The notes beneath the pieces are model-generated. The model had not been told where the DNA came from. It did no database searches and saw only the letters and a program-made list of their open reading frames with translations. From positions 1-36,529 of the forward strand of contig CALXEU010000063.1 in assembly GCA_944387395.1 (NCBI GenBank): DNA of 36,529 nucleotides. Direction: 5' to 3'. Shown piece by piece: positions 1,859 through 9,435 of this stretch (the first letter of the stretch is position 1; every line of letters begins with the position of its first letter). The position numbers and the translations under genes were made by a program. This DNA is from an uncultured Clostridia bacterium. Lineage in GTDB: Bacteria > Bacillota > Clostridia > TANB77 > CAG-508.

Positions 1859-2311
1859 TTAGAACAGTTGAATCTCGAAGTCGGACGTCACCGATGTCGA
1901 AGTTTCTGTCCAGGTCTCCAGTTTGAAGTCGTCCCCGAACATCCCCTGGATTCTCTCTGAGAAATCCTGATAAGATCTCCCTTCATTTGCTTGCACTAAG
2001 TGCAAACCTAGATAGATTCCTCCGTCACTCTTTTTTTTCAGGCTCACGGTACTACCCTCGAGCCATCCAAAAGATTTCCATCCTTCATCCCAGGAGATCT
2101 TGACTTCCTGGGATTCATAGTCGCTCCACCTTATGCTGCTTGTGATGGCTTGTGCCATCATTTTCAGCATCAACATGTCCGTGTTGCTGGGCTCTGCCCA
2201 TGTGTATGCCATATTGGGCACATTCACATAGGTTGCAGATTGCTCCGCCGGCATCGAATTGCCGGCCATCATCGAGAAAAACATCACAATAGCAAGAATG
2301 AATCCTTCCAT
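1859..2311 (-). CDS. Unrecognised secreted or membrane-anchored small protein in a GC-richer cassette
   Basis: A 150-residue protein that I do not recognise. The N-terminus has a hydrophobic stretch (about residues 4-16, FILAIVMFFSMMA) without the usual basic start, then GNSMPAEQS, so it may be exported or anchored. The remainder is polar and rich in Trp, Ser and Thr, ending DFEIQLF. The start is supported by GGAGG 5 bases upstream and by a perfect consensus promoter (2357-2385). Codon use is clearly unlike the neighbours, with many CTG, GAC, GGC, GTC and TCC codons, and the stretch is much richer in GC, which suggests recent acquisition. It is monocistronic: its own promoter on one side, hairpins on the other. 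A 14-codon frame beginning ATGAAACGG overlaps its start and could couple translation. Confidence 0.7.
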   Translation of the reverse strand: MEGFILAIVMFFSMMAGNSMPAEQSATYVNVPNMAYTWAEPSNTDMLMLKMMAQAITSSIRWSDYESQEVKISWDEGWKSFGWLEGSTVSLKKKSDGGIYLGLHLVQANEGRSYQDFSERIQGMFGDDFKLETWTETSTSVTSDFEIQLF

Positions 2312-2356: not shown

Positions 2357-2385
2357 ATTATAGTATAATTTAACTAATTTGTCAA
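2357..2385 (-). promoter_or_regulatory. Consensus sigma-A promoter of the 1859-2311 gene
   Basis: On the minus strand the -35 box TTGACA (2380-2385), a 17-base spacer and the -10 box TATAAT (2357-2362) match consensus at all 12 positions. Transcription would begin near 2350, giving a leader of about 40 bases. Confidence 0.85.
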
Positions 2386-2390
2386 TGTTA

Positions 2391-3638
2391 TTAAATTGTA
2401 CCTTTTATAGTATCCTTTAATATGTTTAAACCTTTTAATAATGTTGCATCATCTATTGTTAATGCAGGCATTAATTTTACTACTGAATTATCTCTACCAG
2501 CACGTTCTACTATTAGTCCAGCTTTGAAACATTCTGTAGATATTTTTTTAGCAAGTACTCCGTTATGTGTTTCTATTCCCCAAATTAATCCTATACCTCT
2601 TATTTCAAAATCTTTTGAAATTGGTTTAACTTCTGTTTCTAAGAATTTTTTTACTATTTCTTGTTTTCTTTGTACTTCTTTTTCTATATTATTTTCTTTC
2701 ATAAATTCTAGTCCTGCTTTAGCAGCAACAATTGCAAGTTGATTTCCTCTAAATGTTCCATTATGTTCTCCTGGTAACCATTTATCTAATTCTGGTTTAA
2801 ATAGTGTTAAGGCAAATGGCATTCCATATCCACCTATTGATTTAGAAAGAACTACCATATCTGGTATAATATTTGCCCTTTCAAATGAGAAGAATGTTCC
2901 AGTTCTTGCACATCCAACTTGTATATCATCTACAATAAGTAATATATCATTTTTTGTACAAAATTCTCTTACTCTTTGTAGCCATTCATTTTCAAATACC
3001 CAGATTCCACCTTCAGCTTGGACAGTTTCTAAAATTAGTGCCGCTGGTTTTTCAATTCCTGAATGATCATCATCTAAAAGAGTTTGCATGTATTCTATTG
3101 TGTCTAGGTTTTTAAACATATATGGAGCAGGTATATGGGTTACATTAGAAAGTTCAATTCCTGCACCTTCTCTTGATTCTTTATCAGATGTTAGGGCAAG
3201 TGATCCAAGTGTCATTCCATGGAAGCAACCCATTAGGCACCAGATATTTGATCTTTGTTTTACCTTTCTTGCAAGTTTTAAAGCAGCTTCAACTGCATTT
3301 GTTCCTGTTGGTCCTGGAAATTGTATTTTATAATTTAATTCTCTTGGCTCTAATATTTGTGTTTCAAAATATTCTATAAAATCCTCTTTTGCTTTTGTAT
3401 ACATATCTAATGCATGCATTATTCTATCATTATTCAAATAATTTATTACTTTTTCTTTTATATAATCATTATTATGTCCATAGTTTACTGCTCCAGCTCC
3501 ACAGAAAAAATCTATGTATTCCTTTCCATTTGTATCTTTTATAATTGATCCTTTTGCATAATCTAATACCTCGTTAAATACTCTACAATATGATCTAACC
3601 TCTGATTCATATTTTTCAAAAATTTCTTTTTCTTCCAT
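2391..3638 (-). CDS. Class III aminotransferase, EctB-type diaminobutyrate-2-oxoglutarate transaminase
   Basis: A PLP-dependent transaminase of fold type I, 415 aa. The closest family I recognise is EctB, which makes L-2,4-diaminobutyrate from aspartate semialdehyde and glutamate. Signature stretches are GPTGTNAVEAALKLARK (about 109-125), FHGMTLGSLA (139-148), LLIVDDIQVGCARTGTFF (233-250, cofactor Asp) and LSKSIGGYG, where Lys266 should form the Schiff base, then GEHNGTFRGN. Length is normal for EctB. An AAAGGA ribosome binding site lies about 10 bases upstream of the ATG. No ectA or ectC is nearby, so ectoine synthesis is not supported. The gene follows murT and gatD in the same orientation, 56 bases after gatD, which suggests a cell-wall or specialised amine role. 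Other omega-transaminase substrates remain possible. Confidence 0.85.
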   Translation of the reverse strand: MEEKEIFEKYESEVRSYCRVFNEVLDYAKGSIIKDTNGKEYIDFFCGAGAVNYGHNNDYIKEKVINYLNNDRIMHALDMYTKAKEDFIEYFETQILEPRELNYKIQFPGPTGTNAVEAALKLARKVKQRSNIWCLMGCFHGMTLGSLALTSDKESREGAGIELSNVTHIPAPYMFKNLDTIEYMQTLLDDDHSGIEKPAALILETVQAEGGIWVFENEWLQRVREFCTKNDILLIVDDIQVGCARTGTFFSFERANIIPDMVVLSKSIGGYGMPFALTLFKPELDKWLPGEHNGTFRGNQLAIVAAKAGLEFMKENNIEKEVQRKQEIVKKFLETEVKPISKDFEIRGIGLIWGIETHNGVLAKKISTECFKAGLIVERAGRDNSVVKLMPALTIDDATLLKGLNILKDTIKGTI

Positions 3639-3694
3639 CTTTTTACTGTCCTTTCATATTTAAAATATAAATTTAAGATTAATATAATATAAAA

Positions 3695-4408
3695 TTAATC
3701 ATAAATTGTTTTTGGATTTTCAAACTCTTTTAATCTAATTCTGTAACATTTTGTAACTTCATCTTCAAATGCAAGCTTATCAATTCCAACATTTAACAAG
3801 TTTAATATATACTTACAGAATTGTGGATTTAGAATAAGGATTGGCCCTAATACATAAGTTCCAATAAAGTTGTTGATTCTAACTCCTTCAAATTTTGTTT
3901 GTTTATTTATTCCATCACCTTTTTCTGTTTTAAATAAATAATTTTTACTATTGTCACCAAAACTCATACTAAATTGTGATTTAAATCCTACAATTTTTAT
4001 ATCCTCAATTGTTCCTAAAAATAATGAATTGTATCTATGCATCATATCTCGTTTTGCATACAAATTAGTTATTCCCAAACCTTCTATTTTTGTTCCATCT
4101 TCATTTTCTATATAATCACCAAAAATTTCTAGAGCGTTACCTATTGCAAAAAATATTTTGTTTTCTTCTATTTGATTTTTTATTTCTTGTACATAAGGTT
4201 TTAATTTTTCTATTACTAATTCTTGAGATTTTTCTGTCATTGGTGCTATATATACCATATCTATATTTTCTGTTAAGAATTTAGGCTTGTCTGTTAATGC
4301 TGTTTCAAACACTTCTATTTCATCAGTACATTGTTGTAAGTATTTTATATTGTACATATTTCCATATAAATTACAAATTTCTGGATATAATATTTCTATT
4401 TTAGCCAT
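3695..4408 (-). CDS. gatD: GatD-like class I glutamine amidotransferase with both catalytic residues missing
   Basis: GatD is the glutaminase partner of MurT and supplies ammonia for amidation of D-Glu in lipid II. This 237-aa protein keeps the family scaffold: NLYGNMYNI near the N-terminus, DGTKIEGLGITNLY (104-117) and NNFIGTYVLGPIL (179-191). The nucleophile elbow, normally ICGGYQ, reads AIGNALEIFG (88-97), with Gly90 in place of Cys. The TYLHGPIL motif reads TYVLGPIL, with Leu187 in place of His. The upstream GGG segment (read as APM at 55-57) and the NHGGRT-type segment (read as KSQFSM, 143-148) are also altered. All frames are open, so this is not a decayed pseudogene. murT ends 72 bases upstream. 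The AAAGGA ribosome binding site, about 13 bases before ATG, lies in the dispersed repeat at 4421-4473. Confidence 0.88.
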   Translation of the reverse strand: MAKIEILYPEICNLYGNMYNIKYLQQCTDEIEVFETALTDKPKFLTENIDMVYIAPMTEKSQELVIEKLKPYVQEIKNQIEENKIFFAIGNALEIFGDYIENEDGTKIEGLGITNLYAKRDMMHRYNSLFLGTIEDIKIVGFKSQFSMSFGDNSKNYLFKTEKGDGINKQTKFEGVRINNFIGTYVLGPILILNPQFCKYILNLLNVGIDKLAFEDEVTKCYRIRLKEFENPKTIYD

Positions 4409-4420
4409 TTTTTACTCACG

Positions 4421-4473
4421 TTCCTTTCTTTGGCACAAATCTGGTTGGAAAAGAATTAATTTTTTTAACCTTT
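4421..4473 (-). repeat. Dispersed leader repeat, copy 1 (upstream of gatD)
   Basis: On the minus strand it reads GGTT, an A/T-rich loop with AATTCTTTTCC, AACC, then AGATTTGTGCC and GAAAGGAACG. Near-identical sequence precedes der (17916-17969) and disA (32845-32991). In each case the 3' end supplies the ribosome binding site. The GGTT/AACC ends can pair as a short hairpin. Confidence 0.8.
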
Positions 4474-4480
4474 ACTACTA

Positions 4481-5872
4481 TTAAACTGCTTGATCATTCT
4501 CTTCTATACTAACTTCGTTATTTATTCGATTTTCTATTTTTTTACAAACATCATTTGCTATTGTTTCTGTATACACATCATATAGTACGTAAATATCATT
4601 TTTATTATTTAGTGATAAGTACTCTGCTGTATCTTCTGGCTTTTGGGCACATACAAGTTTCTCTTTATTAACTCCTGCAATTAAAAGTCTTAAGTAAAAG
4701 TCTTGACATCTAGGTCCACCTATTACTATTTTTTCTATGCTTTTTGTATTTAAGAATTCGAAATCACAGTCATATAACCATGTCATATTTTCAGAAGATT
4801 CTTTTGCATCAAAATAGTCATATAGTAAAAGAATTATTTCTTTGCTTCCTTTTTCTTTTTTTATATAGTCAAAAACACATGAACAAGCTATTGGATTTTG
4901 ACCTTTTGATAAATGTTTTATCACATTTATTCCGTTTATATTTTTCTTGCTAAATCTACTTTCTACTATTTTGTGATTTTTGAAATTTTCTTGTAGTTGT
5001 TCTGGTTCTATTCCTATTTCTTGTAGTAACGTTATAACTGCAAGCATGTTATATATATTAAATATACTATCTGATATCATATTGTAATTATAAATTTGTT
5101 TTTCATGTTCAACTGTAATAATATTTTTCTCATAGTCAATATTTGTAATTTTATAATCTGCATCTGGAGATTTGTAGCCACATCCTGGGCAATATGCATT
5201 ACCTATATGATGATATCTTACATAATTATATTTTAACTTTGTACCACATTTTGGACAAATTCTTGCATCGTTAATTATATTTATAGATTCTTTCAAATCT
5301 GTTTCTAGTTTATTTATTCCAAAATATACTTTAGAATTTTCTTTACCTAAATTACTACTTATTAAGTCATCTGCATTTAAAATTAATTTTGTATCCTTTG
5401 AAAGCGCTGAATTTATTATGTTGAATATAAAATCGGCATGTGCGTTTCTTCTAATTGAATCTCTAAATAAATTTATGCATACTAAATATGTAGGTTTTAG
5501 ATAAGGAAGTATTTTTAGTGAACTTCTTTCATCCATTTCTAAAACGGCAATTTCATTTTTAGCTTTATTAAAAAAACTTGCTCCTGAGAGTAGACATGAT
5601 GCTATTCCAGAATTAATATTTGAGCCAAATTTATTACTTATTACATTTTTTCCGTTTGCTTCTAATATTTCCAATATTAAATTACTTACAGTAGTTTTTC
5701 CATTTGTTCCTGTTACTGTGATAATTGTATTTGGTTTTGCTATATATTCTAGAAAATTTGGACAAATCGACAATGCAACTCTTCCTGGTACCTGCGTTGC
5801 ATTTCTATGTAAACACCTTAAAATTGCTTTAACTATTTTTGCTACATAAAAAGCTAAATAAAATCTAATCAT
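4481..5872 (-). CDS. murT: MurT-type lipid II isoglutaminyl synthase, Mur ligase subunit
   Basis: MurT activates the alpha-carboxyl of D-Glu in lipid II with ATP for amidation. The 463-aa protein begins with a hydrophobic segment, then the Mur ligase P-loop GTNGKTT (55-61), a central domain with LNADD (165-169), and the zinc ribbon specific to MurT (Cys206, Cys209, Cys228, Cys231 as CPKC and CPGC). The C-terminal DUF1727 region retains TWLYDCDFE, resembling the family's acidic catalytic segment, but the usual NPxGFN-like stretch reads QNPIACSCVF, so the C-terminal site has diverged. The start is supported by GAGGT 7 bases upstream and by a promoter at 5906-5934. The partner gatD follows in the same orientation. 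Confidence 0.93.
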   Translation of the reverse strand: MIRFYLAFYVAKIVKAILRCLHRNATQVPGRVALSICPNFLEYIAKPNTIITVTGTNGKTTVSNLILEILEANGKNVISNKFGSNINSGIASCLLSGASFFNKAKNEIAVLEMDERSSLKILPYLKPTYLVCINLFRDSIRRNAHADFIFNIINSALSKDTKLILNADDLISSNLGKENSKVYFGINKLETDLKESINIINDARICPKCGTKLKYNYVRYHHIGNAYCPGCGYKSPDADYKITNIDYEKNIITVEHEKQIYNYNMISDSIFNIYNMLAVITLLQEIGIEPEQLQENFKNHKIVESRFSKKNINGINVIKHLSKGQNPIACSCVFDYIKKEKGSKEIILLLYDYFDAKESSENMTWLYDCDFEFLNTKSIEKIVIGGPRCQDFYLRLLIAGVNKEKLVCAQKPEDTAEYLSLNNKNDIYVLYDVYTETIANDVCKKIENRINNEVSIEENDQAV

Positions 5873-5905
5873 TTTCTTACCTCTTTTTTATAAAAATTCA
5901 CAGTC

Positions 5906-5934
5906 ATTATATACTTTTTATATCTTATTGTCTA
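5906..5934 (-). promoter_or_regulatory. Sigma-A promoter for murT-gatD-ectB-like
   Basis: Minus strand: -35 TAGACA (5929-5934), a 17-base spacer and -10 TATAAT (5906-5911). This is 11 of 12 matches to consensus, about 30 bases upstream of the murT ATG. Confidence 0.75.
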
Positions 5935-5973
5935 TAAGTATTTGATATTTTTGTAAATTTATTTTAACATGCA

Positions 5974-6011
5974 AAACAGTGGAGAGTGAAAAAACACACT
6001 CCCCACTGTTT
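5974..6011 (-). terminator. Hairpin terminator of the 6017-6610 gene
   Basis: Arms at 5974-5988 and 5997-6011 pair over 15 positions with a single mismatch, followed on the minus strand by a short TTTT and AT-rich sequence. It starts 5 bases after the TAG stop and lies between that gene and the murT promoter. Confidence 0.75.
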
Positions 6012-6016
6012 TTAAT

Positions 6017-6610
6017 TTAGTCCTCCACGAAGGACTTTGTCAATATGTTGACTTTTTTGTTCTTCGGGATCTCGATAACTGGTAAAACAGATGCTACATC
6101 ACTGATTCTTACCAGCCCTCCATACATTTTTTGCCTTATGATTCCTTTTGGAGAAAATTGTAACAGTCCTCTATTCCAGTGAAACATCTTTTTTTGCTCG
6201 TATTGGGTTGATACCCAATACCTTGTGCTATGAGGCTCGACGAACTCTGCAAGCTCTTCCAACAGAGCTATATCTATGTTTTTGGCTTGCAAGTTCAGTT
6301 CCTTGTTACTATAAAGAGTCCTGCAGGTCTCATTAAGTATATGCGGTCCATTTTTAAACCCTTCCTCTCCGCATAACCACACGGCGTTATTTCTCCATTC
6401 ACTTGTGGAAATCAAAAATAAGCCGTTGTAGAAGGATTCTACGACGCGCCAACACAAATTCTGCGTTGTTAAGAGTTGGCGCTCTTCTTGCATTCCCGTT
6501 TTTTCCCTTGTTAAAGTTATTTCTCTAGAGTCCGGAACATAGTTAATCATCCCTCCCATAGAAATGAATCCCTTTTCGACAGCTTCCCGGATGGACATAA
6601 CAGTTTCCAT
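6017..6610 (-). CDS. Unrecognised protein, possibly DUF6273-like, in a second GC-richer cassette
   Basis: A 197-residue soluble-looking protein. The layout, with WRVVESFYNGLFLIS (about 53-67), GFKNGPHILNETCRTLYSN (about 83-101) and RYWVSTQYE (about 130-138), resembles from memory the DUF6273-type domain of clostridial surface and phage proteins (WRV..LIS, GYNNGVxxLN, YSN, YWLxS). The match is loose and no function follows from it. I chose ATG at 6608-6610 because AGGAGG (6620-6625) lies 9 bases upstream; the earlier ATG at 6626-6628 would place that site inside the gene. GC and codon use are higher than in the flanking genes. It has its own near-perfect promoter (6678-6706) and a strong terminator, so it forms an autonomous unit like the one at 1859-2311. 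Confidence 0.7.
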   Translation of the reverse strand: METVMSIREAVEKGFISMGGMINYVPDSREITLTREKTGMQEERQLLTTQNLCWRVVESFYNGLFLISTSEWRNNAVWLCGEEGFKNGPHILNETCRTLYSNKELNLQAKNIDIALLEELAEFVEPHSTRYWVSTQYEQKKMFHWNRGLLQFSPKGIIRQKMYGGLVRISDVASVLPVIEIPKNKKVNILTKSFVED

Positions 6611-6677
6611 TTGAAATTTCCTCCTCATTCTAGGTTAAAATTTTCTGCTACATTCGTCAAAGACGAAAAGTATATTT

Positions 6678-6721: not shown

Positions 6722-7909
6722 TTATTTAATTATGTCTTTAGTATCTCTTGCTATCATTAATTCTTCATTTGTAGGAACTACCCATACTTCTACTTTAGAA
6801 TTTTCAGTAGAAATTCTACCTTCGTCTCTAAATTCGTGGTTCTTTTCCTCGTCTATTTCAACTCCAAAGCATTTTAGGTTTTCACATATTTTTCTTCTTG
6901 CATTAAATTGATTTTCTCCAATTCCTGCTGTAAATACTATTGTGTCTAGTCCTTCCAAAGATACAATATAACTTGCTATATATTGAGCAACTTTATATGC
7001 ATATGCCTCTATTGCAAGTTCTGCTCTTTTATTTCCTTTTGCAGCTTCTGCTTCAATATCTCTAAAGTCAGCAGAAACACCAGATAGCCCTAATATTCCT
7101 GCTTCTTTATTTAGCATTAATTCAGCTTCATCAGGAGTTAAGTTTTCTTTTTTCATTAAATAAGTTACGACTGATGGGTCTAAGTCTCCACTTCTTGCAC
7201 ACATTGGAATTCCTCCAAGAGGTGTTAATCCCATAGTTGTATCTACACTCTTACCACCTTTAACTGCACATAAACTTGCTCCTTGTCCTAAGTGACAAAC
7301 AACAGTTTTTAAATCTTCTACATTTTTTCCAAGTAACGCTGCAATACGGTTTGAAACATATTTATGAGAAGTACCATGGAATCCGTATTTTCGTATTCCA
7401 TATTTCTCATAAAATTTATTTGGTATTGGATACATAAATGCTTTTTCTGGCATAGTTTGATGAAATACTGTATCAAATACTGCAACATTTGGTTTTCCAG
7501 GCATTGCTTCCATAGCAGCTCTAATACCTGTAATTGCAGCTTTATTATGAACTGGAGCAAGTGCTGCACACTCATCTATTTTTCTAATAACTTCTTCATC
7601 AATTAGTACAGATGATGAAAATTTATCTGCTCCTTGTGCAACTCTATGTCCTATTCCATCTATTTCTTCTAAAGATTTTATTGTATTATATTTAGGGTCT
7701 AATAATTGTTCTACCATAAAGTCAATAGCTTCCTTATGATTTTTAACAGGATTATCTAATCTAATTTTTTCTCCATTTACTTTATGTGTTAAAAAAGATT
7801 GTTCTCCTATTCTTTCATATGTTCCCTTTGCAATAACTTCTTCGGTGTCCATATTTATTAATTGATATTTTAAAGATGAACTACCACAATTTAATACTAG
7901 AATTTTCAT
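6722..7909 (-). CDS. ackA: Acetate kinase paralogue with altered acyl pocket
   Basis: Acetate kinase converts acyl phosphate plus ADP to acid plus ATP. The 395-aa protein has the N-terminal ASKHA signature (NCGSSSLKYQL, 7-17), YGFHGTSHKYV (about 175-185), GHLGQGASLCAV-like and TTMGLTPLGG segments, and FTAGIGENQ. Compared with the sister gene at 8236, the GHRVVHGGE motif reads GHRVAQGAD (87-95), FAPLHNP reads LAPVHNK (118-123), and GVAMGSRSG reads GIPMCARSG. Two of these (Ala91, Val120) fall on positions that correspond to the acetyl-pocket residues Val93 and Leu122 of the Methanosarcina enzyme, so a larger acyl substrate is possible. An AAAGGA ribosome binding site lies about 10 bases upstream, and the gene has its own promoter (7942-7970). 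Confidence 0.92.
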   Translation of the reverse strand: MKILVLNCGSSSLKYQLINMDTEEVIAKGTYERIGEQSFLTHKVNGEKIRLDNPVKNHKEAIDFMVEQLLDPKYNTIKSLEEIDGIGHRVAQGADKFSSSVLIDEEVIRKIDECAALAPVHNKAAITGIRAAMEAMPGKPNVAVFDTVFHQTMPEKAFMYPIPNKFYEKYGIRKYGFHGTSHKYVSNRIAALLGKNVEDLKTVVCHLGQGASLCAVKGGKSVDTTMGLTPLGGIPMCARSGDLDPSVVTYLMKKENLTPDEAELMLNKEAGILGLSGVSADFRDIEAEAAKGNKRAELAIEAYAYKVAQYIASYIVSLEGLDTIVFTAGIGENQFNARRKICENLKCFGVEIDEEKNHEFRDEGRISTENSKVEVWVVPTNEELMIARDTKDIIK

Positions 7910-8235: not shown

Positions 8236-9435
8236 TTACATACTTTGAACTAATTTTAAAGTATCTCTTGCTATCATTAATTCTTCGTTTGTAGGAACTA
8301 CCCAAACTTTTACTTTCGAGTTTGGAGTAGAAATTTCCGCTTCTTGGTCTTTAATTTGATTATTCTTTTCTTCGTCTAATTCAACACCCATAAATCCTAG
8401 CCTGCTACATATATCTAATCTTGTTAAAGGTCCTTTTTCTCCAACTCCTGCTGTAAATGTTATTACATCTACTCCATTCATTGCAACAGCCATTTTTGCT
8501 ACATAAGTAGCAATTATATAATCATATTCTTTTAACGCAGAAATAGCACGTTCATCGCCTTGAGCAATTCCTCTTTCTACATCTCTATTATCAGATGAAA
8601 AACCTGATAAAGCATATAACCCTGAATGTTTGTTTAATATTTTTTCCATTTGTGCTGGGTTCATGTTTTCTTTTTCCATCAAGAATGTTACAACAGATGG
8701 ATCCAAATCTCCGCTTCTAGAACCCATTGCAACACCTCCAAGTGGTGTTAGTCCCATTGTAGTATCTACACTCTTTCCATTTTGGATTGCACATAAACTT
8801 GCTCCTTGTCCTATATGACAATTTATTATCTTTAAATCTTCTATATTTTTTCCAAGTAACTCTGCAATTCTATTTGCAACATATTTATGAGAAGTACCAT
8901 GGAATCCATATTTTCTTACACCATACTTTTCATAATATTCATATGGAATAGGATATAAATATTGTTCCTTTTCCATAGTTTGATGAAATGCTGTATCAAA
9001 TACTGCAATATTTGGTTTTCCAGGTAAATTACTTTCACAAGCTTTAATTCCTTGTAAATGTGCTGGGTTATGAAGTGGAGCAAATTTTATAGCTTCTTCG
9101 ATTCCATGTTTTACTTCTTCGTCTATTATACAAGAATCTTTAAATCTTTCTCCTCCATGAACAACCCTGTGACCTATTGCAGTTATTTCGTCTAAACTAT
9201 TTATAACAGGATACTTTTCATCAGTAAATTGTTTTAAAACAAACTTAATTGCTTCTCCATGATCTCTTGCTATAACATCATATCTATATTTTTGTCCGTT
9301 TACTTTATGTGTTAAAAAAGAATCATATTTTCCTATTTTCTCAAAATAACCTTTTGCAAGTACTTGTTCATTTGACATATCTATTAATTGATATTTAAGT
9401 GATGAACTACCACAATTTAAAACTAAAATTTTCAT
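8236..9435 (-). CDS. ackA: Acetate kinase
   Basis: Canonical acetate kinase, 399 aa, making ATP and acetate from acetyl phosphate. It has NCGSSSLKYQL (7-17), GHRVVHGGERF (88-98, catalytic Arg90), FAPLHNP (118-124), YGFHGTSHKYV, TTMGLTPLGGVAMGSRSGDLDPS-type sequence and FTAGVGEKG. All standard motifs are intact, unlike the sister copy at 6722. An AAAGGA ribosome binding site lies 8 bases before ATG. pta ends 37 bases upstream in the same orientation, so pta-ackA is the likely operon and this copy the housekeeping enzyme. Confidence 0.97.
   Translation of the reverse strand: MKILVLNCGSSSLKYQLIDMSNEQVLAKGYFEKIGKYDSFLTHKVNGQKYRYDVIARDHGEAIKFVLKQFTDEKYPVINSLDEITAIGHRVVHGGERFKDSCIIDEEVKHGIEEAIKFAPLHNPAHLQGIKACESNLPGKPNIAVFDTAFHQTMEKEQYLYPIPYEYYEKYGVRKYGFHGTSHKYVANRIAELLGKNIEDLKIINCHIGQGASLCAIQNGKSVDTTMGLTPLGGVAMGSRSGDLDPSVVTFLMEKENMNPAQMEKILNKHSGLYALSGFSSDNRDVERGIAQGDERAISALKEYDYIIATYVAKMAVAMNGVDVITFTAGVGEKGPLTRLDICSRLGFMGVELDEEKNNQIKDQEAEISTPNSKVKVWVVPTNEELMIARDTLKLVQSM

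Follow-up and report, generated by a model that had tools for sequence, protein, structure and literature searches.

The usual role of MurT is to activate the D-Glu alpha-carboxyl in lipid II so that ammonia derived from GatD can attack it. In group B peptidoglycan, a diamino acid is carried on this same carboxyl, and in classic B-type walls MurE is not known to be of the DAP type. In the meso-DAP walls of Selenomonas and Veillonella, the D-Glu alpha-carboxyl bears cadaverine or putrescine. The MurT-GatD pair is an antibiotic target and is essential in pneumococcus (PMC6085368), and the C94A, H189A, and R128A forms of Staphylococcus aureus GatD are devoid of glutaminase activity (PMC5871853). 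Eubacterium has been listed with B2alpha (PMC11382707), and the wall of E. limosum contains Lys, Orn, and Ser (PMC4791908).

The locus described here lies in a 36,529-nucleotide stretch of DNA from an uncultured Clostridia bacterium, here referred to as the window. Compared with the MurT-GatD lipid II isoglutaminyl synthase of S. aureus and S. pneumoniae, it has the same protein pair, gene order, folds, MurT catalytic motifs, and Gln-capturing Arg, but its GatD is without the catalytic Cys and His, a loop of MurT is changed, and ectB is part of the operon.

The murT-gatD-ectB module and its pseudo-glutaminase

The original prediction had placed murT, a gatD without catalytic residues, and ectB one behind the other, and both the identities of these genes and their arrangement on the minus strand were confirmed (Table 1), with gaps of 72 bases (murT-gatD) and 56 bases (gatD-ectB). 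One promoter-like site before murT and the absence of terminator-like sites inside the module were also found as predicted, in consensus scans that constitute weak evidence (34 promoter sites were found versus 26 expected in shuffles). The genome containing the window (1.24 Mb, 86 contigs) has no MurT_C gene besides the murT of the module. As the murT-gatD-ectB order was repeated in 2 other genomes of the same genus, the module is no assembly accident. Two ORFs of high GC content, without a Pfam or NCBIfam match, flank the module (GC of the window, 0.283), and a perfect promoter consensus lies just beyond the end of ectB, before one of these ORFs. The window also contains tandem acetate kinase-like genes with a phosphotransacetylase-like gene upstream.

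Table 1. Positions of the module genes and surrounding features in the window
Feature	Position	Strand	Remarks
murT	5872-4481	-	463 aa
gatD	4408-3695	-	237 aa; pseudo-glutaminase
ectB	3638-2391	-	415 aa; predicted diaminobutyrate-2-oxoglutarate transaminase
Promoter-like site upstream of murT	5934-5906	-	TAGACA-17-TATAAT, 11/12 consensus matches
Perfect promoter consensus beyond ectB	2357-2385	-	TTGACA-17-TATAAT
Flanking ORF	1859-2311		GC 0.475
Flanking ORF	6017-6628		GC 0.408
Acetate kinase-like gene	6722-7909		tandem
Acetate kinase-like gene	8236-9435		tandem

The window GatD has lost the catalytic dyad with the fold and the capturing Arg kept. The equivalent of Cys94 is Gly (then Asn) and that of His189 is Leu (AIGNALE and GTYVLGPIL, respectively), and the equivalent of the Gln-capturing Arg128 is present as R125; N91 and R125 were invariant in 53 window-type GatD sequences. 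The score against the NCBIfam GatD equivalog was 66.8 (cut-off, 400). An AlphaFold model with a mean pLDDT of 94.7 matched S. aureus GatD with a TM score of 0.79 to 0.86 and a Z score of 27.6, and the GATase fold is related to those of solved GatDs. Cys and His were both missing in 30/30 of the closest GatD loci in the window's family, all of them beside intact MurTs; the dead GatD characterises the lineage and does not reflect decay. Other genomes of the family had either the canonical GatD, with both Cys and His, or a GatD of a third type that is without Cys, His, and Arg.

Several further GatD variants were observed. An ornithine racemase gene (near cut-off) adjoins the third-type GatD in loci L175 and L177, and the third-type locus L253 also contains an Orr-like gene. 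In L163, L218, L235, L241, and L303, Cys was lost and His kept, and these GatDs may be intermediates or separate losses. Natural MurT-GatD fusions of ~740 to 760 aa with a dyad-less GatD part were found in L296, L297, and L301 (Actinomycetota); our guess, by GC content and neighbouring genes, is that the seven window-type genomes L295 to L301 of the Actinomycetota set resemble Coriobacteriia more. In L302, from a high-GC actinomycete, a gene for an alanine-racemase-fold protein (5339-6454) lies 3' of a dyad-less murT-gatD.

Most of the window MurT could be aligned to its S. aureus and S. pneumoniae counterparts, and it retains the P-loop, the zinc Cys4, the MurT_C domain, and the Asp349 motif. 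The loop that faces GatD reads FRDQLDRYGE in intact pairs and RDSxxRNAH in dyad-less pairs and is of the dyad-less type in the window MurT (FRDSIRRNAH). Asp141 of this loop was present in 67/67 intact pairs and is lost in the dyad-less type. Also lost are Asp359, Gly360, Asp362, and Ser364, which showed little or no variation among intact pairs. MurT has changed in coordination with the loss of the GatD dyad. On a 174-row MurT tree, made with FastTree only and containing some long branches, the presence or absence of the dyad needed only 2 changes, and the dyad-less GatDs go with one or two old clades of MurT, mostly without EctB.

Such pairs might take free ammonia, abundant in the gut, to amidate D-Glu, with GatD as a scaffold and EctB unrelated. 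The S. aureus pair uses ammonia directly in vitro at pH 8.5, with GatD still required (PMC6085368), and dyad-less pairs without EctB are common. However, the rewritten GatD-facing loop and the other altered MurT residues are not obviously needed for plain ammonia, and both EctB and ornithine racemase are repeatedly linked to dyad-less pairs; we consider use of free ammonia unlikely.

Identity of EctB and its linkage to murT-gatD

The window EctB scored 582.7 bits against TIGR02407 (cut-off, 552.2) and was close to solved EctBs; from its sequence it is predicted to be a diaminobutyrate-2-oxoglutarate transaminase, of the same family as EctB of the ectoine pathway (curated model and solved relatives). 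It differs from the latter in that ectB lies with cell wall genes and in that its carriers (19 genomes) are without ectoine synthase. EctC had no match in the window genome and none over cut-off in the 19 EctB carriers, in which a convincing diaminobutyrate (Dab) decarboxylase was not found either; ectoine and polyamine roles of EctB were rejected on these grounds. An ectoine pathway elsewhere that draws on the transaminase, which the original prediction had named as a refutation, was thus not encountered. A role of EctB in ectoine, polyamine, siderophore, or NRPS metabolism, with a location next to murT-gatD due to chance, would be in line with G459 and G593 of the class sample, in which EctB lies between NRPS or PKS genes. 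However, genes of none of these four kinds were seen near the window module, and the adjacency of ectB recurs; together with the absences in the 19 carriers, this leaves the already disfavoured explanation highly improbable.

A scan of named genomes yielded 80 EctB loci (59 to 86% identity) in Clostridia, Coriobacteriales, and Bacilli-like MAGs. Pseudoruminococcus massiliensis and Eubacterium sp. MSJ-21 are carriers available in culture. The commonest arrangement was murT-gatD-ectB, and ectB-murT-gatD was found in Coriobacteriales; in the window's family, ectB stands before murT in genera g20 and g28 and behind gatD in genera g1 and g9. Among 183 murT-gatD loci tallied, many of them found via EctB itself, 26 (2 of which were second copies of genomes already counted) had EctB at a distance of no more than 1.5 kb, and each of these 26 was without both catalytic residues. 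The other 157 loci, without nearby EctB, comprised 79 intact, 71 dyad-less, and 7 mixed pairs (Fisher P = 4e-8 for EctB link versus dyad loss, with the 7 mixed loci excluded and kinship uncorrected). On the EctB tree, the link was present in 24/72 loci and needed 9 changes, 7 of which were forced by supported branches. EctB was present in 7 genomes of the 291-genome class sample; besides the window, four further carriers from this sample had a dyad-less GatD (4/4), compared with 8/36 Cys-less GatDs in a one-per-family sample (P = 0.005). The co-occurrence called for by the original prediction, EctB adjacent to murT and a Cys-less gatD, was therefore borne out far above chance and in several lineages, and ectB is recurrently linked to this wall ligase. 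In L142, ectB lies 3' of an aspartokinase-like gene, and in some EctB loci the partner is an ATP-grasp protein (PF14397), which is found next to murT-gatD in other places.

The original prediction had further held that Dab made by EctB would account for the dead glutaminase. This part failed, since the dyad changed only twice on the MurT tree and 71/97 dyad-less pairs had no EctB alongside; with dead GatDs in old MurT clades mostly without EctB, EctB alone is rejected as the explanation. The part in which MurT would couple an amine such as Dab gained partial support from the EctB linkage, by adjacency to murE (see below), and by the failure to find ectoine and Dab decarboxylase pathways. Because the dyad state changes just twice, the tree offers few independent tests of the correlation between EctB and dyad loss, and an independent-pairs test had no power. 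As most dyad-less pairs are without nearby EctB, Dab cannot be the general substrate, and the substrate of those pairs must differ or be imported.

EctB near murE and the DAP pathway

Linkage of ectB to other wall genes was also seen. In G003, ectB lies between pyrBI and the ftsI-murE-mraY genes of the dcw cluster, two genes from murE, and in G654 and G670 it lies directly 3' of a murE with the specificity motif EDP and not DNPR. DapB and DapF were missing in the window genome; several close relatives were without DapF, close relatives were without DapB, and DapB was below cut-off in 7/8 EctB carriers of the window's family. Given the lack of both enzymes in the window genome, Dab could serve elsewhere in the wall. 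EctB might feed Dab to MurE, to be used instead of DAP at stem position 3, with murT-gatD a mere neighbour in a set of wall genes, and the murE-ectB pairs and the DapB scores are in line with such a role. With DapB and, in several genomes, DapF missing yet MurE of the DAP type, Dab at position 3 is conceivable. However, MurE of the window genome and of the other members of the family that were tested, among them EctB carriers, kept the DAP-type DNPR motif, DapB was likewise missing in members of the window's genus that do not carry EctB, and murT-gatD, not murE, was the commonest neighbour of ectB; we think it improbable that EctB serves position 3. Loss of DAP as a clean explanation of EctB was rejected, as the DapF and DapB patterns follow EctB poorly. 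Second MurE matches in G001, G064, G131, and G143 were open frames of 781 to 789 aa with matches to DAP epimerase as well as MurE and are probably fusions.

Proposed amino acid ligation by dyad-less MurT-GatD and comparison with known walls

Dyad-less MurT-GatD pairs form a pseudo-glutaminase clade, some members of which occur in a recurrent operon with Dab synthesis. Our preferred reading, to which we give an even chance, is that MurT and pseudo-GatD couple an amino acid to the D-Glu alpha-carboxyl, this being Dab, made by EctB, where EctB is present. EctB would convert aspartate semialdehyde and glutamate to L-2,4-diaminobutyrate for the cell wall, and MurT would activate the D-Glu alpha-carboxyl of lipid II with ATP, like the known enzyme. 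GatD would be a noncatalytic partner that makes no ammonia and, with its amino-acid-capturing Arg kept, would either hold the incoming amino acid or shape the MurT site. Either Dab itself or a compound made from it would then be joined to the D-Glu alpha-carboxyl, resulting in a branched or B-type-like peptidoglycan. We infer Dab as the nucleophile, and likewise the reacting amino group and the role of GatD. As the Arg is kept and diamino acid genes repeatedly lie beside dyad-less pairs, amino acid ligation is the simplest reading. In the open literature, no paper combining MurT, GatD, peptidoglycan, and diaminobutyrate was found.

Somewhat short of even odds, in our judgment, is the broader proposal that dyad-less MurT-GatD pairs may be a so far unrecognised family of lipid II amino acid ligases. 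They would load the D-Glu alpha-carboxyl with diamino acids, namely Dab where EctB is present and D-Orn where ornithine racemase is, and may be the enzymes still missing for group B peptidoglycans and branched ones related to them. GatD was dyad-less in G489, likely Acetobacterium woodii and one species only, the wall of which is reportedly of the B type, and this would fit the reading of amino acid ligation.

Loss of the ammonia-making site, together with repeated linkage to diamino acid genes, suggests that, in the window bacterium and many of its relatives, the enzyme pair adds a diamino acid to the wall in place of ammonia. A large clade with a conserved pseudo-enzyme GatD would mean that the MurT-GatD scaffold has been reused for attaching amino acids. 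If so, the pair would be a testable candidate for diamino acid delivery to the D-Glu alpha-carboxyl, and many common gut bacteria would be predicted to have unusual wall chemistry, which might affect host sensing of wall fragments. The predicted product would have its amino acid on the same carboxyl as group B peptidoglycan, but the window MurE is of the DAP type. The likeness to Selenomonas and Veillonella, in which the substituent is a decarboxylated diamine, would be that a meso-DAP wall carries an amine at the D-Glu alpha-carboxyl.
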